A stretch of DNA of 64,000 nt from Mytilisepta virgata (lineage: Eukaryota; Mollusca; Bivalvia; Mytilida; Mytilidae). This document shows positions 913-32,508 of this stretch, piece after piece. The notes beneath the pieces are model-generated. The model did no database searches. It was not told where the DNA came from and saw nothing but the letters and a program-made list of their open reading frames with translations. Position 1 is the first letter of the stretch, and every line of letters begins with the position of its first letter. The translations under genes were made by a program, and so were the position numbers. Location of the stretch: contig CM051516.1 of NCBI GenBank assembly GCA_028015205.1, positions 47,000,230-47,064,229 on the forward strand, in the 5' to 3' direction.

Positions 913-1052
913 CTTTTTCTTTGTTGTTTTCATTTTCGAGGCAACAGCAGAGTGAAGCTGTAAGAGAGTCTATCGTTTCATTATTGGGTGATGCAATTAT
1001 ACCATATTTTCCAAGTATGTCTCTGATAAGATGGGACAAAGAATCGACTTCA
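913..1052 (-). CDS. Gene B exon 3: NB-ARC segment after Walker A
   Basis: The acceptor is TTTTTTCAG| and the donor is G|GTAACT. It begins EVDSLSHLIRDILGKYG and aligns in position with the start of gene A exon 3, giving IDAR-E against IELR-E across the junction. It is 140 nt against 194 nt in gene A. It is probably followed by a Walker B exon outside the window. Confidence 0.65.
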
Positions 1053-7000: not shown

Positions 7001-9858
7001 TGTGGACCAAATTTGTTAATTGTTGGTATTATTTTTGCAAAGTTATTTAGATTTTTTTTTAAAAGTTAACGTCGTCGCCTGAAGCTAATAATTATATATC
7101 GCCTTCAGCGGCATTTGTTAGCGTGAAAAAGATACTAAGGGGGAAATAATTGTAATGGAAACACTAACAACGTCATAAAAACAGTTCTGTGTAACTAGAT
7201 TAAGGACAATATCAAAGGTTCAATGTACGATAAAATCTGAATTCACATACCCTCTTAAGTTTGAAATTGTTGACTGACGCTCGGAGTATAAAGTACACAT
7301 TAAAAAAATGCAATTCAGTAGTACCGTTAGCTTTGTGTTCCACATGGTTTTTAACCTTCAAATTGTTTTAAATATGAGAATTACTTTTGAAAATTAAGTA
7401 GATGAAAGTAATGTTTGACAAACTCTATTTTGAAAATTGATGTAGGATCAACAAAACCAGAGGGCCTTTCGACCCCTCACCATCCTAAACTATGTTGATT
7501 AAGTTTTTTTTTTTTATCTTACATCGATTTTTTGATGTCGTCTCTTATCGACAATGTTATTTCAAAATTGATTTCATACCATAGTCTCGTAGAAAAGTCT
7601 AAGAAAATAATGATCTTTGGCATGACCTACTAAGTATTTGGCTTTAAAAGAATTCAATTCCGGTAAAAGATTTTTGCTAGCATGAATGATACATGTACTT
7701 CAAAATTTACTGTTATAAAAATGTTAGATTTTATGAAAACTAAGAAAATCTGGCTCATACATGTACATAGCTCTGTCCTTTGTTCTTGGCTTTACCTTCT
7801 TGGTCCACTTAGCATGTGAATATGCTCTTCAACGTGTTGGGTTATTATATTGTCTTTCAACATGTTTGACCTTGAGCACAGCTATTGACTCCTATGTCCA
7901 CGTTGATGGACATCTTGTACATCAAAATTGATATCAAAGAATATGCATTTTTTGGACGAGGAACTCGTCCCATATCCTGGTCATGTTGTTCTTTTTGGGG
8001 TTTCGTTATAAAACCCTAAGGCTCCGTTTGTATTCTGGATTAGATTTGCGAGGGAATGAAGAAGGGTGGTTCTGGACAGGGTTAACGGTTTGTTGACCTT
8101 GATATAGCGCAAGGTGTATTAAATGACTTTGTATTTTTTATTATGTTTCCTTCTCAAGGCAAGTATAAAACTGATGTCAAAAGTCCAGAAACATCCCATA
8201 TGTATAATAAAAACCCACTGATCGTAACAAGGTCATGGAACTTACACAGTACATACGTGATACTCTTATTTCTAGCGTGATACGATCTTCTAGGGCGTAG
8301 CTGTATCTTTACACAGTCGTAAGAAGTGCAATATCGAGCTTGGCGCGTGATGTGCTCGTGGTAGGACCATAGCGGGAACTTACCGCTGACGTATAGAGCG
8401 TGGTACGGTCGCAGAAGGACGGCGTTGTAGTAGCTATTTTGCACGTACTAGGAGCGTAGCAGCGTCGTAATTGCCTTCACACTGAATGTGGTTTTCTAGT
8501 TTTTCCACGATCTCGATATGACCTTGCAAGTCGTGGAGGTCGTGTAGAGCGTAGCAGAGTGGGGGTACATATTAATCCGGCCTAACAGACAAAATCCAGG
8601 TAAAAATGGTAAGGCCATCTTTTGTCCGAGAAAAATATTTTAGATTTCATTTAAATCATTTAATGGTGGCATTTCATGGTTTTAGGACGACGTCTTTTAA
8701 TCTCTGTTTATAGTATCAGTAACAACTTATACATGAATCAGATTCATAATTTAATTAATTTTGAAATTCGGGTGGTCTTCCAAAATTTGCAATGTTTCTG
8801 ACTTTTTAGTTATTTCCAAGAAGTAAATGCTCTCTAAGCAGAATAGAATGCAGAGCTTACCGCGCATCTATTTTGTCAAAACACTTTCCAGAATGTCGAA
8901 ACTGTAATCCAATATGTTCAGCCAGAGTTGTTTTACCGTTCCCCGCCATCCCGGTGATGCACACCCCTAGACAAAAGTATTCAATAAAGGCGCAAATAAA
9001 TTGCAAGCAAAACATTAATATGGCGTCACCTGAAATATTATTGGAGCATTAGATAAACTACGTATCAGCGGTATTTACTCTAAAAAATGCTCTTCGAATA
9101 TATTTTTAGGAGGCAACTATACATTACGCAAATATTGTAGCGGTTATGCTTCACTGTGTTGTTTTGCGTTTTATATTAATTATTTTGTAAATACTTGATT
9201 TCAAAAAGCTTTACATGTGAGAAATCATAACAATACCCGTAAGCGTTCAATTAAAAAATTAATCAACGATTGAAATATGTTAAAGTTTATTATAATAAGA
9301 TAAACCAGTTTTAGACCTTCCAAGAGAATACATGTATTGAAAATCTGAGCTTGGAACGCTTTTATTTATTTTCTGAGTATACATGTACATGTATGGGCTT
9401 TTTATATGTCAACTTATATTAGCCTTACCAACATAAGATTTTTCAGTCATGTCCTTTACAATCTGCTTAATATCACCCTGTCTGCCTATTAAATGCCTTT
9501 TTTCGTATTCTTCTAGGAATTGTAATTCTTCCAAACTATTCTGTATTGTTTCTTTATATTGTTTGCACATATCAGCTACTTTCGTATTTCCTAAATCTGT
9601 GTGTAAATCAAGCGAATCAGCAGCTACTGATAAATCTTCAAGTATTTCCTCATCGGAACGAATCCTATTTCTCCGTACTATATTAATACTGTCAATTAAA
9701 TCTGTACTATGTTCGTAATATGGACTATTTTTTTTCAATTCGTTACTGAAATCCTCGTCAAGAAGTAGATTTTCATCTAGCTTTACCAGTACTGCTTCTA
9801 CAGGGTCTATTTGAGAAGGTCGCCCAACACTACCTATTGATTTTAAACTACTGGCCAT
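913..9858 (-). CDS. NLR-like NB-ARC gene B (partial, exons 1-3; 3' part outside the window)
   Basis: Three minus-strand exons join in frame: 9429-9858, 8861-8966 and 913-1052. Exon 1 encodes an unknown helical domain of about 140 residues ending in a GR-x-D-I-K-Q-I segment, the usual entry to a STAND NTPase domain. Exon 2 carries a Walker A loop, GMAGNGKTT, at about residues 149-157. Exon 3 encodes the stretch that follows the first NB-ARC strand. Exon 2 has exactly the same length (106 nt) and phases as exon 2 of gene A, and the exon 1/2, 2/3 and 3/4 junction phases (1, 2, 1) are also the same, so the two are paralogues. The role is inferred: a cytosolic ATP/ADP-switch protein of innate immunity or cell death. 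Walker B and everything after it lie left of position 913. Intron 2 (7.8 kb) is swollen by a LINE in the same orientation. The short reading frames within that intron are not convincing exons. Confidence 0.75.
1053..1879. repeat. Intron 2 of gene B, with a diverged mussel repeat fragment
   Basis: A stretch around 1250-1420 matches part of the element at 6700-6960: both contain a CAAGCAT-A-AATT-AGG-CAAGTT-GGAT pattern. Nothing else is recognised. Confidence 0.4.
1989..4595 (-). pseudogene. LINE reverse transcriptase and C-terminal zinc-knuckle region (broken)
   Basis: The upstream frame (4119-4595) carries the SPGIDGLTVEFYRTF and NYRPITLLNVDTKI motifs. The downstream frame (1989-3947, 652 codons) carries GIRQGCPVSALIF and the active-site region, which here reads QLAEDTTIF. 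The family motif is (F/Y)ADD, so the first catalytic Asp is replaced by Glu. Between the frames (about 3950-4120) the sequence is still RT-like (FDSVEWKF end) but shifted. Near 2330 there is CNICQQEEDYTHFFIDC, a C-x2-C-x7-H-x4-C knuckle typical of LINE C-termini. Confidence 0.8.
4854..5790 (-). pseudogene. LINE apurinic-type endonuclease region (frameshifted)
   Basis: Fragments run from an N-terminal NCQGLG motif near 5770, through QETHF near 5670, VNVYAPN near 5450, a GGDMND motif (the usual GDFN) near 5355, SRKDYFLV near 5170, to YTDHQAVSLKI near 5075 (the catalytic SDH segment). The order matches an L1-type APE endonuclease. The pieces occupy at least three frames: the two main ones overlap at 5413-5465, and another shift lies near 5740. 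The TDH residues are present, but the product would not be continuous. Confidence 0.75.
5831..6700. other. Gene B intron, AT-rich, nothing recognised
   Basis: Short opposing frames near 5874-6713 show no domain, no codon bias and no splice support. I see no gene here. Confidence 0.4.
6700..6960. repeat. Interspersed repeat with internal direct duplication
   Basis: Two diverged copies follow each other, starting near 6708 and 6854. Each has the core CCNANNAACTATCTAT, then CCAAATA, then a T/G-rich stretch. A related fragment lies near 1250-1420, so it is interspersed. Confidence 0.5.
6961..8860. other. Gene B intron with mussel-type repeat at about 8000-8600
   Basis: No exon found. Around 8200-8580 GC content rises and short words such as AGCGTGATACGATCT, AGCGTGGTACGGTCG and AGCGTAGCAG recur, which suggests a degenerate repeat. 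The open frame at 8154-8444 lies in it and looks spurious. Confidence 0.4.
8861..8966 (-). CDS. Gene B exon 2: Walker A (P-loop) exon
   Basis: The exon lies between the acceptor CTAG| and the donor |GTAAGC. It encodes VCITGMAGNGKTTLAEHIG followed by a short Phe- and Lys-containing strand ending in IDAR. The GxxGxGKT loop is complete, including the catalytic Lys. The last two bases (CG) are completed to an Arg codon by the first base of exon 3. The 106 nt length equals that of gene A exon 2. Confidence 0.85.
9429..9858 (-). CDS. Gene B exon 1: N-terminal helical domain
   Basis: The start chosen is the ATG at 9858-9856, with A at -3 and G at +4; an in-frame ATG at 9945 would add 29 mostly hydrophobic residues and is less likely. 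The exon encodes 143 full codons, then one base before the donor G|GTAAGG. The sequence is acidic and helical. It has a Leu-rich run, then LDLHTDLGNTKVADMC, then HLIGRQGDIKQI near the end. Gene A has the matching pattern in the same order. I recognise no named domain in it. Confidence 0.75.
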
Positions 9859-9945
9859 TTCTATTTTCTTAAATGAACACGCAAATATAAAAATGTCACC
9901 TCCATATTTGAGTATTACACAGGAAGTCAATTTAAATAAATACAA

Positions 9946-10429
9946 ACTGTAAAAATACCGATAAGCATGAATACTTATTTATCCTTTGTAGGTCAAACAA
10001 TCTTTAAAATAAATTCAGTAAAAAATACAGTTAGATATAAATTCTTAAAAATAATAAATATTAAATGTTGCTCCTTTGCAAATATTGTATTATTGTAATA
10101 ATGCTAGACAGAATGATTTGGGTCATTACTTTCCATCCTTATCTGTGAACATACCTGAGATCAATAATACTGTGTAATTTATATTCATTGAACTTATTCA
10201 TTCATTCATTCATATCTTTAATTGTTCAAGCATGAGATATAAAGAACATATATTTTTCAAACACATTTACATATGAGATGACTATAATTACAATAAATAA
10301 AAGAAACTACGATAAACGGTACATCGTTCAATTAATTATAATGAAGTTAGTGGACAATCATATTGGCTGATGACATACATTGCCCTGCCCAGATAACCCA
10401 ACTCCTAATCACAGTTTAATCGTTCGGAA
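9946..10429. other. Upstream flank of gene B
   Basis: AT-rich. It holds an (ATTC)n microsatellite near 10195-10213. The gene B promoter should be here, but I see no diagnostic element. Confidence 0.4.
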
Positions 10430-11500
10430 CGTCCATATTCCGCGACACATTGCACAACATGCGTGTGCAAAGTTTTTTGAATTGACGATATCCTTCGTCA
10501 TCGACAAACTCGTGGATCGGTTTTCTTCCTAGTAACACTTGAAATAATAATTCGTCGTCTTACAGTATAATGTTAACGGGTAATTTTCTAATATAATATC
10601 CCATAAAGTATCACGAAGTAGCTGGGTGTATATGCAGTTGCAACATGCATGCAAGTAAACGTCTCCGAATTGTTTTGTACATAAACCACAATTATTTCCT
10701 GTTCAATTTGGAATTTCTATAATCAGTTTGGTAATAAAATAAGAAGTTCGGATTTCTCTGAGTGATTTCAAATTTTTCCCAAAATCTGCCATAGATACAA
10801 AGCTGTGAATATTCTTAAAACGCGTGAAATTGATGTCTGATTCTATGCGTTCTAACCATTTGTCATGTTCACGAGAATTGATTGATTTATGCACAATTTT
10901 TTTCCATTCTGTTTTAGTTGGAAAATATCCATTTTCAATATAGTCTGAAAGGAATGTCAGAAGTCCATACATGCAAAGAATATCAATAATATCAGGGACA
11001 AATCCGTATTGGTTGCGCTGAGGGTTCGTGAGAAATGAAAATTGTTTCGTCAAATATTTAACATTTAATGTGCAGAGTTTCTATAGGAAAAACAGCTTCC
11101 GTTTATACACAAAAGTCATTATGTGGTTGATACCAACGATACTTTCGCACATGTCTGATATGGTTGATACTTTTAAGTTCAAAATGTGTTTTACTATAAA
11201 ATGCTGAAAGCGGTTCAGTCCTGAAATGTCGAGCGGTTTTAAGTTAGTCCAAATCTCACTCCCAAAGAGAACGCACGGTAAACTACAGTTTTATATAAGT
11301 TTACTAAAACAACTGGATTCGTAGAACTAGACATTACACCGTTCAATGCGAAATATGCATTTTTACCCTTTCTGCATGCTTTATTAGTCCGTTCTTTAGA
11401 TTTAAAACGTGAATTAAGCTCAATTCCTAGATGACAGTAATTATCGACTACCGGAATGTTTCCTTCACCAGTATGCCAGTTAAAGTTTTCAGTGTTTTTT
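10430..11500 (-). mobile_element. 3' fragment of another non-LTR retrotransposon
   Basis: Minus-strand pieces resemble the tail of a LINE reverse transcriptase: YCHLGIELNSRFKSKERTN near 11420, VVLVNLYKTV near 11310, then after a frameshift a FGSEIW-like motif near 11265. Nearer 10700 there is a Cys-rich knuckle, NCGLCTKQFGDVYLHACCNC. The 10703-11053 frame lies between them and is part of the same region. Several frameshifts are present. The endonuclease and RT core are missing, so this is a typical 5'-truncated insertion. Confidence 0.65.
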
Positions 11501-11645
11501 TGTTGTGCTTGTGGTTGTTCATTCGTCTTCCCGGGTTTATCTGTAAAATGGATTGCTTTTTTTTTGGCGTTTTTTTTGGTTTGCTCTATGGGTATATTTG
11601 TCCTCTTTTTATATATAATGTATTTCTTAATCACACATTTGGTTG
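11455..11645 (+). repeat. Interspersed repeat family X, copy 1
   Basis: The core GTTCATTCGTCTTCCCGGGT, followed by TGGATT, a T-rich run, and TATATTTGTCCTC, matches copies at 35945-36075 (same strand) and 16255-16375 (opposite strand). The overlapping open frames in all three are by-products of the repeat. Confidence 0.65.
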
Positions 11646-13499
11646 CTTTCAATAGCAAATCATAAGAGGACACATACCAGCCTTTGCCCTGATACATTTT
11701 GAAAAGTATTATAAGACTTTTCAACAAAAAAAAATCCCAAGAATGAACGCAAATCAGGGGAAAATGGCTCATTACTTTGACAAAAAAAGCCCAAAATCAA
11801 AATTCGAAATAGATTTACTATTGACTGACCAACTACATACTTGCGATATTTCGTGCAGGTCTCATTTTAAACAGAGAAGCTTGTTCGTGTATAAGTGATA
11901 ATTTGCACCAATGAGCGTTTTCTTCCCAAAGAATAGCGTAAATTCAATATGAATTTTGCACTGAAATTAATTTATCAACGTATAAAAAACGTGATATGTG
12001 TTTCTTGTTTCTAGAAATCAATACAAAGTATAATTTATTCGAAGGTAGGATTCGAACGATAAGCGAGCGGGACGATCTCATTTGTGTAAAAATGGAATAC
12101 TTGCATCCCGTGCAGACATTGTAGTTCTGATGTGAAGCAACTTGTGTTACAACACGCTTTTAAAATCGCGTTGAACTTAACAAAATTTAATGCATTTTGA
12201 ACGTTATTTTCAAATTGTGTTCCATTGTTCCTTATATATTTCGAATCGAGTTCTGTAGTCAAAATTTTAACACATTTTGAAGAAAAACAAAGCCATCGTG
12301 TATAGTTTACGGGAGGGATAGGTATGAATTTCTGTAACATATTAAATAACTTTTGATCTATTCTTTTATCAAATATTATTTCCGAATTACGCACATTTGC
12401 AATATTGATGCATTGGATGAAATTTTATAAAATTGGTATGTAATGAAAGAATATTTAATGAGAGGCGGACTGACAACAGGTCAAGATCATTAAACCCCCA
12501 GCAAATATGCTGTATTATGATAGTAATTTGAAACATTATGTGTCAGGGTTAACTAAAGTAATACTTATTTCATTTAAATGTGGTAAACAATTGTTATTAG
12601 TTTTAGTAATTCTCAATTATGTAATGCATGTAGCCACCATTTACATAATTTATTCCCTTAGTTTAAGATGTGAATGGTGGGCGAAGTTCCCTTCATGTAA
12701 TAATTTCCTTAAGAAATAGATACAAAATGTTTCCTCGTGATTGAGGATCGAGGATACTTCCTGTGTTTCTACAGTTGTTGAGCTCTGCTATCTCGCGATA
12801 ATACCCTTCAATTTATTTATCGTACACCGCATACAAGTTTTATACATCAACGTTTCTCCTCAGTATTCCTGAAACCTGGATTTTGATTGTACCCTTTGGT
12901 TGACTCTATCTTTGATTGAGTTATGATTTTATGTTTTTTGTTCACACTTTTCGGAGGAACACTTTATCAATAGCTATATTTTATGATTTATATGTATTGA
13001 CACGTGTAGCAGCGTTTAATTTGATGCTAGGTAACTTAGGTTTATTGTAAAACACCTAACAGTGACTCCCAAGATGAAGCTGAAACAATAAAAGAACTGC
13101 TCATGTAATTTTTTATAATGTTGCAATATTACATGGGTTTTTTATTTCACACTATTTTTAATACAGGCTCAATATCCCTTCTTATTTACATAAACAATGT
13201 CAAAATAATTACAGAATGTAAGGGATGATTATTTAATTCGATTAATTCAATGTTTGTTCTTATGAAGAAATAGAAACCTTCAATTCTTATTCAAAATACA
13301 GATACTTAAATTAAATAACTCTTCAAAAAAGAAATTCATAGTGAAATTTGGGGGAGATATGAAAACAAACAAATTCAACGAACAATGATCAATAAATAGA
13401 TGGATAAATAACAACTCAAAACAACCTTCAAATGTTCATTTCCATGGAACGTTCATTGCACCCTTAAGTTCGGTCACTACAGTTCAATACCTCAAACAC
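11646..13499. other. No supported gene
   Basis: The frame 12035-12394 (minus) has several Cys residues but no recognisable domain, and nothing supports it as an exon. Otherwise the stretch is AT-rich and featureless. Confidence 0.4.
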
Positions 13500-14220
13500 G
13501 AAAGCGGCGTCCCTTGACGAAATCAAATTCCGAATCACTACTCATCTTGTAACGCATGAACAAGTTGTTGTAAGGATTGAGGTTGTGGTTGCCGTTTCCT
13601 GATACCTCTGAGTCGTCCAAAAGATGGTCGGAGGGGGGAGTGATTTTGACGGCCAGGGAAGCACCGCAGCGTTGATACCCATCAGGATGCGGTTGTTATT
13701 CTTGCAATGTGGGGTCGGGCATTATCATGTTGAAATTTTGACCCACTCTGCTCCATTAAAGGTAGAACGTGTGGCTGCAGGATTTCATCACAATACCGAT
13801 GGGCTGTGATATTTCCTTGAATGTGCACAACGCTGTCTTTCCAGTATGCGATATTGGAGCCCACATTTTTACACTACCACCACCGAATCTGTCGATTTTC
13901 AGTTCTCGGCAAAGCACTCATTTCGTCGTCGGTATACCCTCGCTCTACCATAGCTGTGGCCATACCCTGTGTGCCCGAGCCGTCTATGAAAGCCTGCTGC
14001 AGTAGAGGTCGCTGTTTTGAGTCGTTCCCGCAAATGAGGTAGCCGGATGTGACGATCCTGGGCAGATGTGGTCACTCTTAGTCGGCCTGAGCGTGGGCAA
14101 TAACGTGTTGAACCTCGCTGTCGGTACCTATCACAAAAGGCGAAAGCTTGGCTACATCTGTCTGGGATTCACTGCTTGTATCTGACCTGTGTTGTTGGTT
14201 TTCGTTTAGACGTGGCATCA
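13500..14220 (-). pseudogene. Tc1/mariner-type transposase remnant
   Basis: On the minus strand, pieces of a Tc1-like DDE transposase appear in order but in different frames. There is an N-terminal part with DRHIRLPHLRERLKTAT near 14040, then GGGSVKMWAPIS near 13870, VHIQGNITAHRYCDEIL near 13810, QHDNARPHIAR near 13720 (the second catalytic Asp segment), a LPWP-like motif near 13660, and RKRQPQPQSLQQLVHALQDE near 13570. At least two frameshifts separate them. No terminal inverted repeats were identified. It is clearly inactive. Confidence 0.8.
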
Positions 14221-15835
14221 ATTGGCTCGTTGAGTGTCTACATGTGCAACTGATTTTGAAACCGGAATTCTGAATGCCTTAGATTTGGGTTTCATGCAAA
14301 AAGCCTGCAGAGATGATAAACTCGTGTGTCTTTGTACAATCAAGCGAAAAAAAATCGGCAAACAGAATGACCAGTCACAATTGGCGACCCTGCATTTAAA
14401 ACCCAAAATGAATTTCTTTTGTCCTTACATAATGACATTAAAGCATGCAAGATTTATAAAACAACGATTACGTTCAAATAAAACATGATGAAAAATTAGG
14501 CTACGCGTTTCCCTTTTTTTTCTTTTTGTTTTTTTTTTTTTGAAGTGTATATATGAGAAAAGCCCTGTGTCCAAGAAGTACTACCAATGGATGCAATTAC
14601 AATTTTTTTCTGATATATAATTGTCTTCGATTATTGAAGGAACTTTCTAAAGTGGAACCATTATGTCCAAGTATTGTCCGTAGAATTGTGTGTTTTGTAT
14701 GAATAAAGGAGCTGTCTACTTGTCTAGGTTTACCAAATCATAACAGTCTGAATGTCTTCCAGCATATTCTGATTTTGTTGCGATGTGGATGCTAGGTACC
14801 TTTTTCGAAAAACTTGATGTCTGAACATGGAATTGCAATCTTTTAAATTCAATTGATTTAAACCATTGCTATTTCATAGTATATGGTTGCTTGGTATTTT
14901 TTCCAAGAAGTTTAGGTTTGAGAGCCAATCAGGATATTGTATAAAGTTGACATTAAACAATGCTTGAAATCCAAATTTTCCAAGAACTTGCTATTCCATT
15001 TGTCGATTTGGATGGTATATGAACATACTACTTGGGGACAAAAACAATGAGTAGTGTATTGTAAGGATACTGGAATTTTTACATCGATAGTATATGTGTT
15101 GAATTTATTAAATTATTATTTTCGAAAAATCACATATCATTCCTTTATTTTTTCTTGTAATAAAATTTTAATAAACATCTTTAGAGTTACATATCTATTG
15201 TATCTTGAATACATACAATATCCAGTTATTAATTAAGAGCTTTTTATCATTCTATTTTATTAATGTTTGATGTTATTTTTTCTTTTCTACTTTTTCACTG
15301 CAGGTATAAAGGGATATTTTGAATAAATTCTTAATACAAAATCCATACAGTCATACAGAATTTAGTACGTTAGCTCATATAGGAACAAGAGAGTCGGAAA
15401 GAATGAATTATATTTGAAGAGATACACTATATTGGGTCCAATACTTCACATTGTTACTGTGATTGGTATGGTACATTACGGTGAATACATTTTGGACACA
15501 AATCCACATCTAAGTAATCGGATCTAATTGCTTTTCTTCCTAGTAAAGTAAAAATGGACTTCCAAAATTTCTAGTGTAGTAATTTCTAAAAGAAAATTTA
15601 TGTATTTTCCTGTCGTTACACCGAAAGTTGATGTGTTCTGTGGATGCAATGCTTGTTGCAAAAATTGCGTTTTTCTTTTTCAGTTTGAATTTCTAATATT
15701 CATCAACGTTCACACAAGCAAAGAAAAAATGGAGTAAACAGTTTATTGTAAAGCTATCACTCAACATTATACATGTACACTATAATAATATTAACACATT
15801 ATAGAAATATACTAAAGAACCACATAATTAAAACT
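14221..15835. other. No supported gene
   Basis: AT-rich sequence with short frames on both strands and no domain signal. Part of 15660-15830 weakly resembles 38670-38830, which hints at an old repeat or duplication. Confidence 0.4.
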
Positions 15836-18713: not shown

Positions 18714-18982
18714 AAACGGTTAATCAAAATGAATCATGTGGTCCCTGTATCATGATTAATCTTACCCAACGGTTAATCAAAATGAATCATGTGGTCCCTG
18801 TATCATGATTAATCTTACCCAACGGTTAATCAAAATGAATCATGTGGTCCCTGTATCATGATTAATCTTACCCAACGGTTAATCAAAATGAATCATGTGG
18901 TCCCAGTATCATGATTAATCTTACCCAACGGTTAATCAAAATGAATCATGTGGTCCCTGTATCATGATTAATACTTACCCGA
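18714..18982. repeat. Five-copy 53-bp tandem repeat with internal hairpin
   Basis: Five nearly identical units have a period of exactly 53 bp; the shared word TAATCAAAATGAATC starts at 18721, 18774, 18827, 18880 and 18933. Each unit contains AATCATG and, 12 bases later, CATGATT, so it can fold into a 7-bp hairpin. The only clear variant is C/T to A in the fourth unit (TCCCAGTATC). Near-identity means recent amplification. Confidence 0.9.
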
Positions 18983-19894: not shown

Positions 19895-19916
19895 TCATTT
19901 TTCTTTAATAATATGA
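19895..19916 (-). CDS. Gene A exon 12 (proposed terminal exon)
   Basis: After the acceptor ATTTCAG| the frame runs HIIKEK and a TGA stop at 19897-19895. It is only 22 nt, so support is limited to the splice site, the phase and the fact that the whole model then has an exact multiple of three. An alternative acceptor in the same intron, near 20218, would give a different short ending. Confidence 0.4.
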
Positions 19917-22900
19917 CTGAAATTTAAAAAAAATAAAATATTTATGTTAATTAAGTTCACAGCAACTCATCTGAAAAACTTTAGCTTGATTATATTTTGA
20001 AATATATGAACATGTCTTGTGGTATACAAATACCAACCCATTGTTGCATGTTTTATAATCTGCAATTTGCAATGTTTATTGTGAATAGAAGTGCTGTCCT
20101 TTATATACGTTTTATATCAATTTCTAGAGTGCAACGAGGGTTTCTTGATTAACATGAATTAACACCGGGAATAACCAAAACATTACAAATATTGTAACCA
20201 AGAATATAAAATAGGTCTAAAAAAAATATTAAAAGTATACTGTCTTACTTACTGCAACATATCACCTGTATACTCAATAATCGGTCTTCCATTCTCGTCA
20301 TCAATTAATTGTGCTGATTGAAGAAAAGAGAACAATATGTTTACAGAAAGGATTATTATTTTTAAATATTTTAGAATTTTCTCATTGGATGAAAACTGTC
20401 ATGTGATTAAAAATAAATTGAACGTTTTTACAAAAAATGAACATCGCGGGAAACAACCCTATTGTTTACCTCAAAAACATCCCAATTTTTCCCCGCAAGG
20501 TAGACAACAGCGTGATCGCGAGAAACAACCCTATTGTTCATCTCAAAACATTCCAATTTTCCCAGCAAGGGAGACAACTGCGTAATCGCGAGAAACAACC
20601 CTATTGTTCATCTCAAAACATTACAATTTCCTTCCGCAAGGGAGACAACTGCGTAATTCGTCTGCATTAAAAGTCATGAGGGTCAAATTAAGTCTTGCTC
20701 CTGTGGAAAAAATAATAAAACAATTACGGCCCTCAAATGTAGCCGTAATTGGATAATATAAAATTATCTCTTTCATTATAAACAAGTTATATTGCTGAAA
20801 ACATTTCTTACAATTAATTTTTTATTCCCATTTTCATAACACTTAACATTTTAGAAAGACAATATTATTACTTTAATGGTTTTCTCCAAATACAATGTAT
20901 GTGCCCATATTTCTCTGGACTCTAGGTTTCCTTCGTGGATGGTCGATAAAAAAATATCCTTACTTTGCACAATTCGTAAATGAACAAGTTAATGATCATT
21001 TCCAAGTATGAATTAAATCAAGGAATGTATATGAAGCCCGCCTCCTTGTGTGGGATTTTCTCGCTGCGCTTAAAAATTGGTAGCCTTAAGCTGTTATCTG
21101 CTCTTTGGTCGGGTTGTCTCTTTGACACATTCCCCGTTTCCATTCTCTATTCTATAGTTCTTTTTTTTTAAATAAATTTGTATATTTAGTTTCCAATTTG
21201 ATATTTGTCAATCGGGTTTGTCAGTTTAGGAGTCTTACCATTTCCTGATTCCAGTGTCATGACCAAAGTCCTCAATCTTGGAGTTGCTGCTGGCAAAAAC
21301 CCTTCCAAATCTTTAACTGTATTTGCTTTTAGAAGAATATACAGATAATCCGAAATTTTAAACTTCGTTCATTTCATTTGAATGTTTTGATGAAAATACT
21401 AAATGTTTATACTTATGTGATATTTCACATTAATAATTTTATTATAATTTTCTTAATTCTAAATCAGCCAATGGGCCAGTTTAATAAAAAATGATGGTTT
21501 ACGTTGGTTTCATATATGTAATTTGAAACGTACTAATAACGTCATTAGGCAAAGAGCAAATTACCATTTAAAATAGTTTGAATTAAGTAAAACTGGTTAA
21601 TTGGAATTTACCTAGTGACCAATTATCTGTCTGGGAACTTTTATGTATCTTTTTGCCTTCGAAAAAAGGCGAAAGTTTATCTTTCATCACCCAATCATCC
21701 GACTTTTGTTTCTTCAGAGGTGTTTCACCTGCAGACGCACTTTCTTTAGCTTTATGAAAAAAAGTATTGATGGACTAAATTATCTCCGCTGTGTAAATTT
21801 TCTTATCAGTTCTTACAAACCTAAACTAACTTAAAATTGAGGTATATTAATGTATTTTCTTATTTTTAACATCCAAATTATTGCGTGGAAACAATATCAG
21901 TATCAAAATAAAATTCAAAGAAATATACAAAAGGTGTTCAACCATGTAGACCATAACTGAAACAAGAGGCACACCAGAGCCTGTATCGCTCACCTGGAGT
22001 CTGGTTTTCAACTATTTGACCAAGTTTGTTGCAATTGGTTCAATTGTTCAGGGAAAATTTATTTGACAAAAAAGGGCAATAACTCCTAAATGGGTTTTGG
22101 GATTTCCTTTAAAATTTCAGGGTATGTAAACCTCAACATGGCAAACATTTTTCAAATTTACATTTCACTTCTATCTCAAATAGTTTTGGAGATAAATGAC
22201 GAAAAATGTTAAATTTTGAAAATTTGACGAAAAACGGGCAATAACTCCTAAATGGGTTTTGGGATTTCCTTCAAAATTTCAGGGTAGGTAGATCTTGTCA
22301 TGCTGATCAATTTTACCCCATATCAGATTTTTGATATCTGTAACGATTTTTAAGTTATAAGCCAAAAACCACACATGCACCCCTATATTCTATTTTTAGC
22401 TACGACAGCCATATTTTATGTCAGATCAAAATAAATTGAGGATCGTTTGTAGAGGACATATTATAGATCATTCCTATTAAGTTTCATACCAATCGCCCCA
22501 GCGGTTTCAGAGTAGAAGATTTTTGAAAATCAGCCAATCAGAAACAAGAATTGCCTCTGGTGGCCATGTTTCTTGACCAATCAGAACTAAATGAGGAAAC
22601 TTTGTTGAGGACCTTCCATACACCACTCATGCAAATGGTTTCTGAGGAGAAGATGTTTGAATGAAAAGCTAACGACGGACGGACGACGGACGCCAAGTGA
22701 TGGCAAAAGCTCACCCTGGCAATAACCAGGTGAGCTAAAAAGACATTAGCATTGTCACAAAATAAATGAAATATTTTTTTCACATTCGATGTCATTAAAT
22801 GAACGAATTTCTTAATTGGCGATCTGTATATGTAACGCAGTGGCAGCATTAAAAGACATCGAACAATTAATCACTGTTGTGAGTATCAGCAAAAATAATA

Positions 22901-25900
22901 CAGAAGCGATAATGTAGTGGTGAACACCCATAAGACCAAAATTCGAAGATAAGGCAAACAGTAAATACTGAAGTGTAGCTCATCTATCATCTGCCACGAT
23001 CAAATAACCAATTGATTACTCACGGCCTAACGTATTAGTCAAATATGGTTAGCAGCGTTATATATATCATACTTTTATCATTTTGAAAATTCCGTTTTTC
23101 AGTTAATGCAAATATCAGTAGACACTTACTCTGAGCAAGCTTCCGTTTATTCTGTCCATTTTCAGGCTTCATTTCCATGTCTGAACTATCTTCCAGTGAT
23201 CCAGAACCAAATGATCCAAGCTTGGATCGGCGTTTCTGCCAATCAGGATTCTTAACTAAGTCCCTTCTGTCATTGAAAGTCGACTGCCGGTTTGGAAACA
23301 CTTCATCCTCAAATGAACTTCCTTGGCCAGAATCCAAACTGGCTCTGGTGTCTCTTATGTTCATATTTTCTAAATCCGGGGTAAGGCCACCAGTACTTGA
23401 AACTCCAGAACTTGAGCTCCGTTTTGTTCTTTTATTAGGAAAGCCATGAGACACTGTATTCATTGTTTGTTTTGATTTCATGGGGGCTTGAAGTGGTAAC
23501 TTAAAATTTTGTTTCTGTTGTGAAATATCATTTAAATTATTATTTATTTGGGTATTATCATTTATCTGTGATGAGTCAGATTCCGTCGAGGATTCCTGTG
23601 ACAATGTATCCATTTGGGTATGGATAGATTGATTATCAAGGCATCTGTGTGGTTCCTCAACATCGTCACCACTGTCTGAACTCGTCTCAGACTGACTTCT
23701 CGAAGAATCATCTCCATCAGATAAATTTGTGTGATATGCCTATAAAGACATTTTCGATACTTTATATAGTATCTAGTATACTAGTATTTCTTTTGGATCT
23801 AATCGTATATTATATCATTGTGTAAGATGTAAACATAAGGAAATATTTGATAAACATGTATTTGATTTTTTTTTCTCAATAAAACGAAAGTAGTTGTTTA
23901 TCCAAAATTATTGTGAAAAAATGATAGGATTTATATATTGTATTAAATTTCTTCCTGACTCGTGAATGAAAAGGAGCCATAATTCGGGATATGGACATTT
24001 CCTCCAAATCCCTACAAAAGACATTATGTTGTTTACATTTATCAAATCAGCGATCACTCTAGTTGATAATAAACAACAAAATGGATAACAAGAAAAAAAT
24101 GACATACCAATCAATAAACGCCACTCAAAAGTCAAAATCCCGGACAAAAAAGCAACATTAAAGGGCACAAAACTCAAACATAAACATAACAGAGAGTCTG
24201 GATAGTCTGATTGTCACACTCTGAAGAGTAATGGGGTTAAACCGGTTTTATGGGTACCCATACCTTCCCTTATTCCATCCCGACACTCTGGTGTATAAAA
24301 CATACTATAAAAGCTAAAACAGTATGATTACCAACAAGGTAACCGCTTGACGGATCTGAAAAATTCGGTTGAACGGGACATAATTTTAATAGCAGGGTCA
24401 TGAACTGTTAAACTTCAAGTATTTAGACACTGCCAAACTTTACCATTTCTTAAGTATACGACGATGTAAATTCTCACCGAACAACACATTCATGATATTG
24501 TCTCAATTACTTACGGAATACTTTCTCTCAACATTTTCTAGCATTTCTGTCTCATGACCTTGTTTCAAAAAGTATACATGATTTGTCTTAATTTTCTCGA
24601 AATACTCGTGGTCACCTGGTAGAACATCTTGGGTCATTATTTTAAAGACATCATTGTAGAGCTTTATTCCTTCCTGTAGCAAGTCGATGATGACAGGATC
24701 ATTAACCTTTTCATCATTACTTTTACCGAAACAACCGGAATCTGAAATAAAAATGATTACATATACATGTACTTTCAACTTGTTGAAATGGACGCTTATT
24801 TTATACTACTCTTTCTTTTACAACATAGTACTTTAAATTAGATATACAAAGAAACCCAAAATCAAGGTGTTAAATTGCACCTCTTCATGAGACTATAATT
24901 TATTTTGTAAGGAAAGAAAACCATTGTCATACCTTCAGAACGTATGTGACTTCTAATTTTTCTCCGAATCAAATCTCCTTTCGCATGTAAACAAATTATT
25001 TCTTTGCGACTTGGAGATGGATACAGCGTTCGCACTATTTCTATGCACTCGCTGTAATCTTTTTCAGCCTCTGTAAATTTCTTTAACATGGTATAAACGT
25101 CTCCTCTGTTTTTCAGCTTTTTAAGATAGATATCCGTTTTCTGCATTTTTAAAGCTTGAGCTACACTAATGCTATCTCGGTAATGTTTCAGTGCTTTTTC
25201 CATCTCCTTTTGGCATTTGCCTTCTTCTTTGATCCTCAAATGTTGTATTCCTAATCGGAAATGACAAGCACCTATGTTGGCATAAAATGTGAGAATGCTT
25301 TCATTTTGTGTTAGATTTCTTCCCAATGTTTGGAGAGCTTTTTCGTGCATTTTTATAGCATCTTCAGCTTGATTTTTGCGATAGTATATACACCCTAAAC
25401 AGTTGTAAATGTCAGCTAGATACAACTTGACATCCGATCTTCGATTAATATCACGCGAACTGAATTTTTGCATTGCCTCTAGAAAATAATTTGTTGATAA
25501 TTCTTGGTTACAATCCATTTCCAGAAGACCTCTGTTATACAGCATTCGACCTTTAAGTATCAACAACTGATGTGCTTCATTATCGTTTAGTAGGTCTTTA
25601 GGAAATTTGTCCAATGTGTTTGTTACGTCTTTGCATTTTTCAACAATATCTGAAGGAATCTGCTCATATCTGATGATTGCAGATATATGTTCAACCTCCC
25701 AGCTGCACCTTGCCAATGATACGCCCTTAAACTTTAAAGTCATAGACTGTAAGTACGACAGATGCTGGCCAGGATTATGTATCATTTGTACAACATTGCT
25801 CCTTCTTTTTACTTCTTCAATTGATTGCAGATTTTGAATAAACGGAATTTTCATGAGATTATCGTAGCCTTCCATGATTTGAAGGTACTTTAAAATATGA

Positions 25901-28900
25901 ACCTTCATTTTTTCAGATTTTTCTCTTGCAAGTAGTACATTAGAGTCGTACTCTTCCCCAAGTCCTACAACAATTTCATCCAACAAAGATAGAAAGTTAT
26001 ACTTTGATCGTTTAACGGCATCAGCAACTTCTATGTCCTTTTCCCTTTCTGTAAGGAACTTGCATACTACAGGGTGAAATGAAAATATTTTCTGATCTGC
26101 AAGATATTCTTCAAATTCGGTTCCAGAATCGTATTGCCCAACATCATCTTCATAATCGTTTTGAATTTCTAAAAGATGACGACTCTTAAAGAGAAGTAGC
26201 TTCAGTTGGATGTCCCTGAGATTTTCGCTGCTTGTTCCTTCCTTACCATATACAACTCTGGCAGCAGATCGAAGATTAAATTTTGTGCTTCCAAATAAAG
26301 ACAGCTGACAAAGAACTGGTTTGTATTCCTTCAGATTTTCGTATGGTTTGCTGAGACATTGTTGCATGTTCAACACTGACGTTGGAAGGGCTCCAACAGT
26401 TTCTCCAAGTACAGATATTACCTCAGCAGCATGGATGGAATTGTTGATCAGGTCACTTACCACACGCAGAGCAAGTGGACAGGATCCACATATACGAACA
26501 ACACAGTTTATTTGATCATCGGTGATACCACACTGAAATTAGTTAAATAATTTTAAAATATAAGTTATAATTAAGAAATGTCTTAATTGATATGGCTGAA
26601 ATTATTGTAAAAATAATTGTTCAAAGGAATAACTAAGTGACTAGATAATGACGGAATACCGCAAAAGATTATCTAATAGCAAGGAAGAGTCGTGTAAAAT
26701 TAAATACTATAACGATATCACCAAAAAATTTTAAAAAAAAGTGCCAAAAAAATAAAATTGGAAGCACAAAAAGCATACGGACCCCCATAAAAACGGGAGC
26801 TGACATGAGATGTCCAGTTAACTGTATAAAGTGGGTAATATCCGGTAAAGTGTCAAGTCCAGAGAATCGTCATATCCAGTCGGATATGAAATATAACTGA
26901 CGATTTTTATATAGAACTTCGTATTGATCAATTTAATTCGTAGTGACCACCATAACCCTTTCGAAGTGATGATATCACAGACTGAACATACAACTATCTT
27001 AAGTATATATGTGGCAGTAATTTTGCGAACATACAACTATCTTAAGAATATATGTGGCAGTAATTTTGCTTGATGAGAGAGTCACTAATATCAAATGTAC
27101 GAAAATAGTAAACACAAGGGGAAATGCTGGATATTTTAGCTATGTTTTTACTATGAAATGGAAAGCTCAATGAAGTAAAATCGTCACGTTTGTCATATTT
27201 ATTTTTATTTATCATCTAAGTACAATAGTATTAGTCTAGTTGTGAAGCAGAAATGGATGTGACGGGGTTCACTTCAATCTCAAATTCACTGGGTTAGATA
27301 AGATGCATGTTATCCTTAAAGTGAGGATGATCAAAGGATATCGCATCATGTATATAGCGGAAAATGAGCATCGTTAATTTTAAATCCACTGATAATGGTT
27401 CAAACCACTCCTGGAGTAGGCTTTGTCAAATTCATTCTTGAATCCACTCTTTGTTGATGTAACTAGCAATATGGAATTTTGATAGCGATTTACTGGTGTA
27501 CCTAGGAGACCCTGCGATATTTCTCTGTTCGAGTGGACACGTATGATTTTTGGTTTTCCAGTTTATTTTTGTTATCACGTACTGCATAACCGAAGAAACA
27601 ACAGAAATGTGATTGATAATGTGTCCTCTAAAATCGAAGTGGATATGTAAGTGGGTTTGCATTGATTATATGTAACAAAAGTAAATTAAAAACATTAGGA
27701 TATTTCTAAATATTGTTTATAGTAACAATGTCATGATAAATTACAGAACTCTTAGTTTCTTTTAAAAAATGCTGAACCAGATTTCAAGACTTTTTTCTTA
27801 TAATGGAGTGGTATCAAAAGTATCTTGGAACACTGCATTAAATTCTAGTACTCAACCATATTTTAGATAATCTTTTTGTTGAATATAATATAAATTTATT
27901 ACACTTCTTTTTGATATTTTATAACTCCACAAAAAGACAAAGCTTTCATTTGATTCTAACTGTTTAAACAGATGTAATGGCACGTAATCAGTCCTCAACA
28001 ACTTTGATTTTTATTACCCTTCTTGTGCATTTCTCCACCAGTTTTGTTGCATTCAATAAATCCAATTTCTTGACTTCTGTTTTATGTACCAAATATTTCA
28101 GCTGTTGCCTGAGTTGGCTTGTGGATTCGTCGCTGGTGTTTATAAGAAAATCCTCTTGCGATGTTATGACAATTCTTATCTGGAACAAAAAAACGTCACT
28201 ACTAGAACCAAGGTGAGAATGAATTTTAGAGCGGTAATGAATGCACCGTCACTTGTTAAAAATGTGTCATTACACAATTGTCCTGAATGCTTTATTTTGA
28301 ATTGTATAAATGGAGAGGGAGACATTCCGATCCAACACATGGTCAGTGTGTAATAATTTTTCTGATGTGATCTTGTGCGGAGGGTACCCTCGTACAAAGT
28401 CTTAAACGGTTTTAAGGTAGGGTCTTCCAAATAGGGTTACATACAAAACATTAGGCTCAGCCCAAGATTGTGATATACCAAAAATTATTACCCATGATTT
28501 AACGAAAGAAGTGATAGGAATGTTAAATGGAAAATAAATATACAATTAGCATATGCCTATATGTAAGTAAGTAAAGTCAAGAAATACCAAACTGATATTC
28601 GAAGGAGGGAAAAATCGAAATAACTGACAAACTCCGGAGAACATCGAAGACAAGACCAAAACAATACGTGCATTATAATTAAAAACTATAAACATATGAA
28701 AAACATGGACCCCACCAAAAAACCGGGGGTAGACTCGTATTTCTCCGTAAGAGTAAGTAGTTTCTGCTTCCTGCAGGACACCCGCCATGCTGTCATGTCA
28801 AATCTTGTATGAGGAAGGGATAAAATCAATGGAACAGGTCCATTTTCATTTGGAAAACGGTTTTTTCATACCTGTCAACGAAGACATGATGACGTCCTTA

Positions 28901-30399
28901 AAACTTTAATAAGGATGACTCCAACTTAGGAGAAACATACCTCTGTCAGGAGCTATTTTGTAAAGGTCTTCGTTTTAGGACTAGTCTTTTTGACCTACGA
29001 TGCTGATTTTATTGTTTGTTTGGTTAACTATTGACCGGGAATGTATTTTTGTTATCAATTATAGCAACATAACGGAAGACCAGTCATTAAGAGTTTTATC
29101 CCAAAATTCTAACCAAAATCTGATCCAAGTGCCCGATCAAAAATGCTTAAACCGAAGAGTCCATATGGACACTGCTATTTGAGACGGATACATTTGTACT
29201 TATTTTCGAAAAATCGATTTCGATGATTCTTTAAAAGTTTGCAGTTGTTTTTTTATTTCTAAGTGATAAATCACCTGACGAAATGCAGTTCGTTAACTTC
29301 GTGATTTGCCTTTCGGAACACTGTCCACGAACAATGATCCACAGTAATCAATCCAAAGTACATCTTAGTTTCCAAAAATTTGCTTTTATGACTGAAACCA
29401 GATACAAGATATGTTTACCTGTAGATAGATCGTGGAAACCAGTTTTTATCAATAGATGAAGCCGGGACAAACAGAAACAGCTATACCGTGTGCCAGATTC
29501 AAACTGGCAACCTCATTGGTAAAAGGCTGTTGGTAATTATTAGTGATGACACCGCCTCTTCAGGGTTGATATTCCAACGCGCATTTTTGGAAAATCAAAA
29601 TAATTCTTTTTTTTAACTGTCTCTTAAAAGCTACTCAATTCTCACATCAATATGGGCAAATGTTTAATTTCACCACCGGTATCGTTATTGTTCTTATACC
29701 TTGCAATCGTTTATGTTTTTCATTACTTCCAGTAAAGATTTAAGGTAACCCAAGACTTTCAGTTTCTCCATTGGATCTGTAGTTGAATCTTCCAGGTTGT
29801 CGAATAAAAATATTTCTGAAATACAGAAAACATCCTACAACTATATTATAAAAGTAATGTTGATTTCCATCTGAATTTCAGTTTAATATATTCATTAGCT
29901 GCAACAAATAGACAGAAGAACTTTTCATTCTGTATTTAGTTCACTAAAAAGACATTTATTGCATGGAACGAGCATACTAGTAGAGAACATACAAATATAC
30001 TTGTAAACTTACGTTTTCTACTCTTCTTGTCTTTAATATAATTTGTCAGAATGTCTCTCAAAGCAGACTCCTCCATGAACACTGCATCTAAAGTCTCTAC
30101 TTCTTCACCATTTTCTGTTACTTTAACCGAACCAGATGTAGACCCCCTCAGTTCAGATATACTATGTATTGTAGTCCGTAGAAAATGTCTAAAAGTTCTT
30201 TGTTCTCTGAAACAAGAAATGTTATTCAAGTACCAAAAAATCCCAAAAGGGTAAAACCAAACCTGAGCTATAATGTGTATGTTAGGGAGATATTCCTGAG
30301 AATCCAAATTAGTACTGAAATACTAGAGTTCCTGATATCCAAAACTCACCAGTCAGTCGTAACTATATATATATATATATTTGTAAATTGTGCTCTTTG

Positions 30400-30430
<31 letters not shown>

Positions 30431-32508
30431 GTCTGAGGGTCTGTATATTTGATGGCGTTAATTGAATGTTGTGTCATTTTTACCTCTCCTGTTATCAACT
30501 TAAGTTAACGCAAGGTGCAGCACTGGGCGGAAACCTCGATTGTAAACGTTATATTTGGTACCCAAATGGTCTATAGATAGGTGATAAATATTTTTAACCC
30601 AATTTTTAAATAACTTCCGGAAAACAACTCCGCTGAAGTTGATACTGTAATATCATTTTAATTGTACTTGATTAGCAAATTTCGAGATGTTTTATCGCTA
30701 ATTAATATTTAAATCAAAAAACGATAATTGAAAGGCAGGTTCAATGCCAAATGCCATACATACGGAGCAATACATGAAGGAAGTATTCCTTATTTTACTA
30801 CTTTAAACCGTAGTAAAGCATAACGGATACAAGATTTGACAGAACTGGTTCTCCGCATATAGATGTAATGCAAATTATATCATCAAGATTTGTCTTCTAC
30901 ATTTCACATGGCTTAAGTGTTCAGTTGATAGGTTTTTATTTTTTACAATTTTTTTCTGGCCATCACCTGGTGTATCAAGAAGTCCAGCATTAGAATCCTG
31001 CCGAATAGGATGTCCGCTTGGCTATGAAGATCTATTAAATTTTAGCCGCATACGGTCAGCATTATGGTTTCATATCCTATGACAGGTTCTTTGAACAGAT
31101 AAAGGACATTTGCAACGAATCTTCAGATATTCAGGCCTAGTACTTACGAAATGGGCAGGAATTTTTATCATAAATAATGGAGAGAAGTAATAAAAAATGA
31201 TATGATGTAAGGCTGTTTTGTACTAGACCAACATGATTAGCTGTATTTTTAAATGACAAGAATACAGGGTTGGCAGGTTCGAGAAAGACTTAAGTGGAAA
31301 ATTTTACAGCATTACTGTTGCTCAAATTAATTTACAATGAAATACAAATATCCGCAGATTGTTGACAGCAGGCATTAAAAGGGCTAGAGCTATAGTATTA
31401 CTCTTACTAGTATAATCTAACCATGAAATAAGTAAAATATGCGAACGTTCAGATAATAACCAACCACGGTACCAAATATAAAAAGAATCTTCCAAAAGAT
31501 GAATTACTTATTGTGTACATCAGATTTGCAAAAGGGCAATATACATAAAGACGTAAATGCAAACTAAAACAACCTTAAAGTGGATATTATATTGAATTTC
31601 ACATATGTTCAAACTATGCCCAAATATGATACGCTACTCCGTAGTTTTATTTGTTTTCACAGTGGCTCATTATCATTTTTCAGCGGTTTTCTCATGTAAT
31701 TTGGTTACTCTACATTATTTCTTACCGTAGTTCAATTCTTGTCGTTGGCCAGTTTTCACGGCGTAACTCGTAACACACTGTATTAGCCAGACAAGTTTTC
31801 CCCATTCCTCCCAATCCACACAAAAGAATTCCTTGAACAAAATGACAATAGAGGAATGATATTTTACAGAATAAATATGGGTATTAAATAGATGCTGATG
31901 AAAACATAGGTTTTTAATGTATTGCCAAATATGGAGGTGTGTTATTCTCTTTGACAAGAAAGAAGAGAAGAGAAAGTAGCTTAAGTTTTGTTTAAATTTT
32001 CTTCATAAATTTTTCAGGTAAGTTTAGATAGTTTGAATAATTTGTACTTATTGATCAACATACCTTTTTTGTCTCCACTTTGTATTAGTTCTTGGATTTC
32101 TTTCATTTCATTTTCTCTGCCAACAAAATGTTGATCTTTGAAAATCCCTCTTTTTATACAAATTTGTCGAACTTTTCTCAAATTCTGTCGACATTGTTGC
32201 AAACTTTCTTTAACATTAACTGATCCTAATTCGGTATGGTAATTTAGATAACCAGTTAGGTTGATAAGAAACTCTAACAAGTCATTTTTATCACTAAAGT
32301 TGTTTTCCAAAGCTTCAAAATAGAATGAAGTATTGTTTATATCTCTTGCCTGTACACCAAGCTGCCTGTTTGACAAGTTTAGAACCTGTTGGAAAATATC
32401 TGGTTGTCCATCCCAATATTCCGTGAAATAATGCTTCAATTTCGTCCATATATCAATATCTGTGATTTTTTCTGTCGACACAGCTTGTACAATATCCTCA
32501 AGACTCAT
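19895..32508 (-). CDS. NLR-like gene A: N-terminal domain - NB-ARC - TPR - Ser-rich tail, 12-exon model
   Basis: Minus-strand exons 32064-32508, 31726-31831, 30013-30206, 29700-29815, 28018-28179, 24933-26532, 24515-24741, 23130-23739, 21612-21743, 21239-21316, 20253-20313 and 19895-19916 join with matching phases and total 3753 nt, or 1250 residues plus stop. Residues 1-140 are an unknown helical domain. A complete NB-ARC ATPase follows: Walker A GLGGMGKT at 154-161, Walker B IFLFDN at 250-255, a strand ending in VITS near 291-294 (the usual TTR region) and GSCPLAL at 357-363. About 660-865 is helical with TPR-like repeats. After 940 it is Ser/Asp/Gln-rich. This is the architecture of STAND-class innate-immune or cell-death ATPases. 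The specific ligand and partners are unknown. Introns hold several repeats. The last exon is the weakest part; extra small exons cannot be excluded. Confidence 0.8.
20253..20313 (-). CDS. Gene A exon 11
   Basis: The acceptor is AATCAG| and the donor |GTAAGTAAG, a strong site. It encodes QLIDDENGRPIIEYTGDML, then two bases. Phases fit exon 10 and the proposed terminal exon. Confidence 0.6.
20445..20660. repeat. Three-copy tandem repeat of about 70 bp (gene A intron)
   Basis: Units start at 20445, 20517 and 20587 (periods 72 and 70). Each begins CGCG(G/A)GAAACAACCCTATTG and ends with GCAAGG(T/G)AGACAAC. Two open frames on the plus strand here (20337-20585, 20437-20670) follow the repeat and are not genes. 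Confidence 0.8.
21090..21165 (-). repeat. Interspersed repeat family Y, fragment
   Basis: Its reverse complement contains AAACGGGGAATGTGTCAAAG and AGACAACCCGACCAAAGAGCA, matching 42006-42065. It lies in a gene A intron. Confidence 0.7.
21239..21316 (-). CDS. Gene A exon 10
   Basis: The acceptor is ATACAG| and the donor is G|GTAAGA. The exon is 78 nt and encodes KDLEGFLPAATPRLRTLVMT and a short end. Phases fit both neighbours. Confidence 0.6.
21612..21743 (-). CDS. Gene A exon 9
   Basis: Entry is phase 1 after CTAAAG|, preceded by a T-rich tract; the donor is G|GTAAAT. It encodes 43 full codons rich in Lys and Ser, including TPLKKQKSDDWVMKDKLSPF. It is phase-compatible with exons 8 and 10. 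No domain recognised. Confidence 0.6.
21960..22745. mobile_element. Non-autonomous bivalve repeat bounded by GCTCACCTGG / CCAGGTGAGC
   Basis: The ends carry a 10-bp inverted word, GCTCACCTGG near 21988 and CCAGGTGAGC near 22727. The right end has GACGGACGACGGACGCC. Internally a segment starting GGGCAATAACTCCTAAATGG is present twice, near 22073 and 22227, 154 bp apart. An inverted copy with the same terminal features is nested at 37186-37870. There is no coding capacity. It sits in an intron of gene A. Confidence 0.75.
23130..23739 (-). CDS. Gene A exon 8: Ser/Asp/Gln-rich linker
   Basis: The acceptor is TTTATAG| and the donor is A|GTAAGT. It encodes 203 codons rich in Ser, Asp, Gln and Asn, with RSQSETSSDSGDD early, SSSSGVSSTGG in the middle and KRRSKLGSFGSGSLEDSSD late, plus basic patches (KRTKR, KRK). 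It looks disordered and phosphorylatable, and might carry a nuclear-type basic signal; those roles are inference. Confidence 0.75.
24080..24300. repeat. Mussel-type interspersed repeat fragment
   Basis: It is purine-rich, with AAACGCCACTCAAAAGTCAA and GGGTTAAACCGGTTTTATGG. It resembles repeat sequence I associate with mytilid genomes; no second copy is evident in this window. It lies within a gene A intron. Confidence 0.35.
24515..24741 (-). CDS. Gene A exon 7
   Basis: The acceptor is TTATTTCAG| and the donor |GTAAGT. It encodes about 75 residues, helical and acidic, with DPVIIDLLQEGIKLYNDVF and ending in NVERKYS. No domain recognised. Entry is phase 1 and exit phase 0, both matching the neighbours. 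Confidence 0.75.
24933..26532 (-). CDS. Gene A exon 6: GxPLAL motif, winged-helix-like and TPR region
   Basis: The acceptor is ATTTCAG| and the donor is G|GTATGA. This is a single 1600-nt exon. It opens with VVRICGSCPLALRVVSDLI (the GLPLAL motif of NB-ARC proteins), then a basic stretch ending in HPVVCKFLTEREKD. It finishes with helical repeats of TPR spacing: ADIYNCLGCIYYRKNQAEDA, then YANIGACHFRLG, then LKNRGDVYTMLKKFTEAEKD. An internal GTAAGT near 26458 is read through, because the frame continues for 500 codons. Confidence 0.9.
26984..27069. repeat. 43-bp tandem duplication (gene A intron)
   Basis: GAACATACAACTATCTTAAG occurs at 26984 and again at 27027, followed both times by (T/A)ATATATGTGGCAG. 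Only one or two bases differ, so it is recent. Confidence 0.9.
28018..28179 (-). CDS. Gene A exon 5: NB-ARC sensor strand and ARC1 start
   Basis: The acceptor is TTGTTCCAG| and the donor is AGG|GTAATA; it is exactly 54 codons, phase 0 on both sides. It begins IRIVITSQEDF, in the place of the conserved TTR strand of NB-ARC proteins, and later has VKKLDLLNATKLVEK, like the L-x-x-L-x-x-x-x-A-x-x-L segment before ARC. It fills the gap between exons 4 and 6. Confidence 0.8.
28555..28850. repeat. Mussel-type interspersed repeat fragment
   Basis: It contains AAACTGATATTCGAAGGAGG, TGACAAACTCCGGAGAACAT and ACACCCGCCATGCTGTCATG, a pattern I associate with mussel repeats. It lies between exons 4 and 5 of gene A. 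The open frame at 28546-28788 is part of it. Confidence 0.35.
29700..29815 (-). CDS. Gene A exon 4: Walker B exon
   Basis: The acceptor is ATTTCAG| and the donor is AAG|GTATAA. It starts with IFLFDNLEDSTTDPMEKL, a hydrophobic strand ending in Asp-Asn as in NB-ARC kinase-2, and ends VMKNINDCK. Confidence 0.85.
30013..30206 (-). CDS. Gene A exon 3: NB-ARC segment between Walker A and B
   Basis: The acceptor is GTTTCAG| and the donor is C|GTAAGT. It encodes REQRTFRHFLRTTIHSISEL, an acidic insert, and EESALRDILTNYIKDKK. The copy in C (52197-52393) is clearly related. Confidence 0.85.
30403..30430 (+). repeat. Long poly-T tract
   Basis: A run of more than 25 T follows a (TA)n block near 30364-30380. 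It is in the intron between exons 2 and 3 of gene A and could be the tail of a minus-strand retroelement, but no element is recognisable next to it. Confidence 0.8.
31726..31831 (-). CDS. Gene A exon 2: Walker A exon
   Basis: The acceptor is TTCAAG| and the donor |GTAAGA. The exon encodes ILLCGLGGMGKTCLANTV and then a strand ending TRIELR. All P-loop residues are present. Its length, 106 nt, and its phases (1 in, 2 out) equal those of gene B exon 2. Confidence 0.9.
32064..32508 (-). CDS. Gene A exon 1: N-terminal helical domain
   Basis: The start is the ATG at 32508 (MSLEDIVQAV); 148 codons plus one base follow before the donor G|GTATGT. It contains LKHYFTEYWDGQPDIFQQVL, then NDLLEFLINLTGYLNYHTEL, and ends HFVGRENEMKEIQELIQSG. 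The HT-x-LG and (F/I)GR-E/Q patterns are shared with gene B exon 1. No death, CARD or TIR signature is obvious. Confidence 0.8.

Follow-up and report, generated by a model that had tools for sequence, protein, structure and literature searches.

We analysed a 64,000-nucleotide window of the genome of the mussel Mytilisepta virgata (GenBank assembly GCA_028015205.1, contig CM051516.1, positions 47,000,230 to 47,064,229), which carries two neighbouring genes, A and B, whose first exons encode the same N-terminal domain ahead of a P-loop NTPase. Judged by predicted structures, this module is probably a divergent death-fold domain, nearest in shape to the death effector domain (DED) and the pyrin domain (PYD), that heads bivalve NB-ARC/STAND-TPR sensors of the NLR or APAF-1-like type. 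The receptor plan is a known one, and what is new is a predicted death-fold head that escapes curated models. The first-pass annotation of this DNA had suggested that the domain could be a signalling module with which bivalve NLR-type proteins begin, and our results indicate that this is probably so.

AlphaFold models of both domains are helical, as had been proposed. The B model (pLDDT 79.1, pTM 0.65) has six predicted helices, at residues 17-32, 36-45, 47-56, 60-70, 74-87 and 99-119, and the core of the A model (pLDDT 71.3, pTM 0.58) has five helices of at least four residues together with a short third helix. In structure comparison both models match death-fold domains (DED, PYD) best, well above other chains, and the six-helix bundle of the death-fold superfamily is present in the predicted models; the fold itself is probably not new. 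Foldseek E-values are not significant for either model. No Pfam model recognises the domain convincingly, and none of ten aligned domain rows matched the DED, PYD, CARD or Death sequence models at E up to 10, in a search where HMMER filters remove most matches above E 0.1. It had been stated that the domain matches no known one, and that a confident death-fold match would speak against this: the statement holds for Pfam models and not for the fold, and a death-fold match does emerge from structure comparison but not from sequence models or Foldseek E-values.

Among the known death-fold families, CARDs have a topology with a bent helix 1, pyrin domains have a short or absent helix 3, and DEDs carry an RxDL charge motif near helix 6. 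Helix 3 is reduced in the A model and full in the B model, so that the B domain differs from the pyrin domains of AIM2 and NLRP10, to which it also has no sequence match. At the place aligned with RxDL (B residues 90-93, in a weak alignment), none of the 10 rows has R at position 90 and none has D at 92, and the mussel domain has an H-x3-G signature in place of this motif. It likewise has no sequence match to the DEDs of PEA-15, FADD and caspase-8 (PF01335), and is distinguished from them by heading an NB-ARC/STAND-TPR protein. The best PDB sequence match of the domain profile was to a dynein heavy-chain stalk (6kjo, E 0.0024; B residues 17-70, positions 32299-32460, minus strand), which is probably due to chance.

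The first-pass annotation had also proposed that exon 1 of A and of B share this domain, and this is confirmed. The likeness is bare on direct comparison but clear through relatives. Smith-Waterman alignment of the whole of exon 1 scored 76, which was equalled by none of 2000 shuffles, and that of the domain alone scored 53, equalled by three of 2000 (best shuffle 66). A profile hidden Markov model (HMM) built from B-type sequences alone gave A-types 10.0, 14.2 and 15.7 bits against 15.3 for the best decoy, which is no separation, and profile-profile comparison of A with the B-types gave a probability of 47%. Profile search recovered bridging relatives: P0018 (M. galloprovincialis), P0019, P0020 (Solemya velum), and P0021 and P0022 (Ostrea edulis). 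When the domains of these five were combined in an HMM, it scored the domain of gene A at 21.8 bits, A-type relatives at 30.0-30.7 and B-types at 81-104, with a best score of 14.2 bits among 5100 shuffled decoys, and profile-profile comparison of the A-types with all others reached 97%. Homology is further supported by the agreement in exon structure, since exon 1 of both genes has an ATG start and a GT donor of identical phase (1) before the P-loop exon, and that next exon is 106 nt long in both. The domain is conserved in bivalves, and A and B, which lie side by side, are paralogues that have diverged.

The domain proper spans about residues 17-121 of B, which is shorter than the approximately 140 residues first estimated. 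The GR of the (V/I)GR-(E/Q) segment, previously counted as part of the domain, is the start of the NTPase and lies outside it: the AAA_16 match begins there, at residue 128 or 129 in the relatives P0003-P0007 and at 123 in P0009 and P0010. A six-frame search of the window found the strict pattern L-x-x-HT-(D/E)-LG-x-x-x-V at exactly two sites, which are on the minus strand at 9612 and 32247, but its HT-(D/E)-LG core is common to window A and B only and is not kept in relatives, which have HIDSG, HTESG, HVDDG or HSNMG. Within the domain, the sole invariant positions are H91 and G95 (B numbering), kept in 15 of 15 sequences, and L81 is nearly invariant. Hydrophobic positions kept in at least nine of ten rows follow the predicted helices (B residues 18, 21, 24, 28 and 32; 42; 64 and 67; 77, 78, 80, 81, 82, 84, 88 and 90; 99, 103, 106, 110 and 117).

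Gene B is complete on the minus strand, with 11 exons between an ATG at 32508 and a stop at 20249. Its product has 1244 or 1246 residues, depending on the choice of one acceptor, and consists of the N-terminal domain, the P-loop NTPase, TPR repeats and a Ser-rich tail, in that order. Identity to six Mytilus relatives is 55-59% in five and 48% in the remaining one. Exon 4 encodes FLFDNLED, which we take to be the Walker B region, and exon 6 matches TPR_1 (1e-12) and TPR_12 (8.8e-12) and shares 51% identity with P0005 across 531 columns. Sequence scans of the relatives place the NTPase in the NB-ARC/STAND class. NB-ARC scores above its curated cut-off in P0006, P0010, P0019, P0021 and P0022, nSTAND1 in P0003, P0004, P0005, P0021 and P0022, and NACHT in P0003 and P0005; we call the class mixed because NB-ARC is below cut-off in P0003-P0005, P0007, P0009 and P0020. 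TPR models score above cut-off in B exon 6, P0003-P0006 and P0020-P0022 and below it in P0008-P0010, P0018 and P0019. Leucine-rich repeats (LRRs) form the C-terminus of vertebrate-type NLRs, and no LRR model matched the scanned B exons or the relatives (for P0021 and P0022, among the best 25 matches listed).

In NB-ARC NLRs and in APAF-1, the exchange of nucleotide leads to oligomerisation, which gathers their N-terminal death-fold domains. The similar order of parts suggests that in the mussel proteins the TPR region could sense, the NTPase switch and the head recruit. By analogy, the C-terminal TPR region would hold the protein off until a ligand or partner is met; the NTPase would then swap its nucleotide and oligomerise, and the clustered N-terminal domains could seed a stack that takes in a death-fold adaptor or a caspase pro-domain, triggering inflammatory or death signalling. 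Oligomerisation, partner recruitment and an immune role are all proposed on this analogy. As the A and B domains differ in helix 3, they may have different partners.

A serious, if somewhat unlikely, rival keeps the death-fold head and takes the proteins to be APAF-1-like regulators of cell death or development instead of immune sensors. An NB-ARC domain behind a death-fold head is the plan of APAF-1 and CED-4, and the matches listed for B and its relatives include no LRR. A placozoan study held that NLR-like genes without LRRs are unlikely to recognise pathogens (PMC6321704). Adjacent, strongly diverged copies and a decayed third copy are indirect evidence the other way, as they would suit a fast-changing receptor cluster. 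We think it quite unlikely that the heads form a separate bivalve-wide death-fold subfamily, marked by H-x3-G between helices 5 and 6, which would use a dedicated adaptor or caspase to assemble a complex like an inflammasome or apoptosome, with A and B as paired sensor and helper. Several points weigh against a death-fold assignment of any kind: there is no sequence link to any death domain, Foldseek gives no significant match, structure comparison of helical bundles calls for caution, and confidence in the AlphaFold models is moderate. They would favour a helical bundle of its own kind with a coincidental match, for example an oligomerisation or autoinhibitory domain resembling the coiled coils with which plant NLRs begin, a reading that we hold to be improbable beside the death-fold reading. 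A HEPN-type RNase effector, for which the first-pass annotation had advised looking, is very improbable: the domain is helical with an invariant His and such heads are common on pearl oyster NACHT proteins (PMC9646362), but an Arg 4-6 residues before that His occurs in 0 of 10 rows, Rx4-6H elsewhere in only two of 10, and Pfam listed no HEPN family.

The order of parts is identical to that of placozoan and cnidarian NB-ARC proteins, which begin with a CARD, DD or 'Death-like' domain and end in WD40 or TPR repeats; the likeness noted is one of part order, and the bivalve head is missed by Pfam models. Trichoplax has 39 NB-ARC and three NACHT genes, with heads that are mostly CARD or 'Death-like' and DD in two (PMC6321704). 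Among bivalves, the pearl oyster has NACHT proteins of tripartite layout that start with a recognised DD or HEPN domain and in some cases include TPR (PMC9646362), whereas the present relatives score mostly as nSTAND1 or NB-ARC. In Crassostrea, TRADD-N proteins that carry DEDs have expanded, and retrotransposons are associated with DEDD2-clade genes (PMC8195603); no TRADD-N was among the matches listed for the relatives scanned. A sponge study excluded NACHT-TPR proteins from bona fide NLRs (PMC12909245), a 2012 transcriptome study of Mytilus edulis searched for NLRs and NACHT, found neither and reported that NLRs were absent (PMC3308963), and a figure legend on apoptosis-related domains in a hard clam paper names NB-ARC and DED (PMC7831173). 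We found no paper describing the domain by title and opening abstract in the open-access literature, subscription papers being outside this coverage. The family illustrates one way in which such sensors can escape notice, as an NB-ARC/STAND-TPR body is joined to a death-fold head missed by curated models. If confirmed, it would give a testable way into the question of how cytosolic sensing is coupled to caspases in bivalves, and its profile could be used to count sensors of this kind in other molluscs.

Gene A lies downstream of gene B on the same strand, and its remainder extends beyond the window; given its probable exon 3, gene A is not known to be truncated. Full-length relatives are present in M. 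edulis and M. trossulus (P0009, P0010). The M. trossulus relatives are named LOC134687421 (gene B) and LOC134687422 (gene A) and sit on contigs of equal length, and from these names the A-B neighbourhood is probably old. The C-terminal tail of P0009 and P0010 is quite unlike the Ser-rich tail of the B-types, and Pfam listed no match there. Stop-interrupted, LINE-like reverse-transcriptase frames occupy 1989-5757 (minus strand) within what is probably intron 2 of gene A, with an RVT_1 match of 4.5e-26 on 1992-4118.

Features of genes A, B and C in the window (positions in the 64,000-nucleotide stretch)
Feature	Position	Strand	Basis
Gene B exon 1: N-terminal domain and NTPase start	32064..32508	-	ATG, open frame, GT donor, matches to Mytilus proteins
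Gene B domain core, residues 17-121	32146..32460	-	AlphaFold model, structure matches
Gene B motif LNYHTELGSVNV, includes family-invariant H91 and G95	32212..32247	-	pattern search and alignment of relatives
Gene B exon 2, P-loop (GLGGMGKT)	31726..31831	-	splice sites, tblastn; length 106 nt
Gene B exon 3, NTPase	30013..30206	-	
Gene B exon 4, NTPase, FLFDNLED	29700..29815	-	
Gene B exon 5, NTPase	28018..28179	-	
Gene B exon 6: NTPase end, then TPR repeats	24933..26532	-	
Gene B exons 7-11	20249..24741	-	splice sites and match to P0005
Gene B exons 7, 8, 9	24741-24515, 23739-23130, 21749-21612	-	
Gene B exons 10, 11 (with stop)	21316 (or 21310)-21239, 20313-20249	-	
Gene A exon 1: N-terminal domain and NTPase start	9429..9858	-	ATG, open frame, GT donor, matches to P0009/P0010
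Gene A domain core, residues 18-121, helix 3 reduced	9496..9807	-	AlphaFold model, structure matches
Gene A motif LDLHTDLGNTKV	9577..9612	-	pattern search
Gene A exon 2, P-loop (GMAGNGKT)	8861..8966	-	8.8e-08 with P0010; length 106 nt
Gene A exon 3 (probable), NTPase continued	913..1052	-	tblastn E 0.51 with P0009; frame and splice sites fit
Gene C exon-1-like part, no start, in-frame stop	54013..54392	-	337/380 bases identical to gene B
Gene C exon-3-like part	52197..52393	-	151/191 aligned bases identical to gene B
Gene C exon-4-like part (weak)	49231..49347	-	tblastn E 1.3 with P0005

A third, decayed copy, gene C, which was absent from the first-pass annotation, lies at 54392-49231 on the minus strand; in a tblastn search (E up to 10), the stretches separating its parts showed no P-loop exon. 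A 1219-aa open frame at 44077-47736 (minus strand), between genes B and C, encodes an endonuclease and a reverse transcriptase (Exo_endo_phos, RVT_1) and is a retroelement, possibly a recent one. Tandem arrays occur at 18715-18980 (53 bases x 5) and at 20443-20657 (70 bases x 3), the latter adjoining the last exon of gene B. A further array, in which a 52-base unit recurs about 100 times, fills 58747-64000, and four minus-strand frames of 135-153 aa sit inside it.
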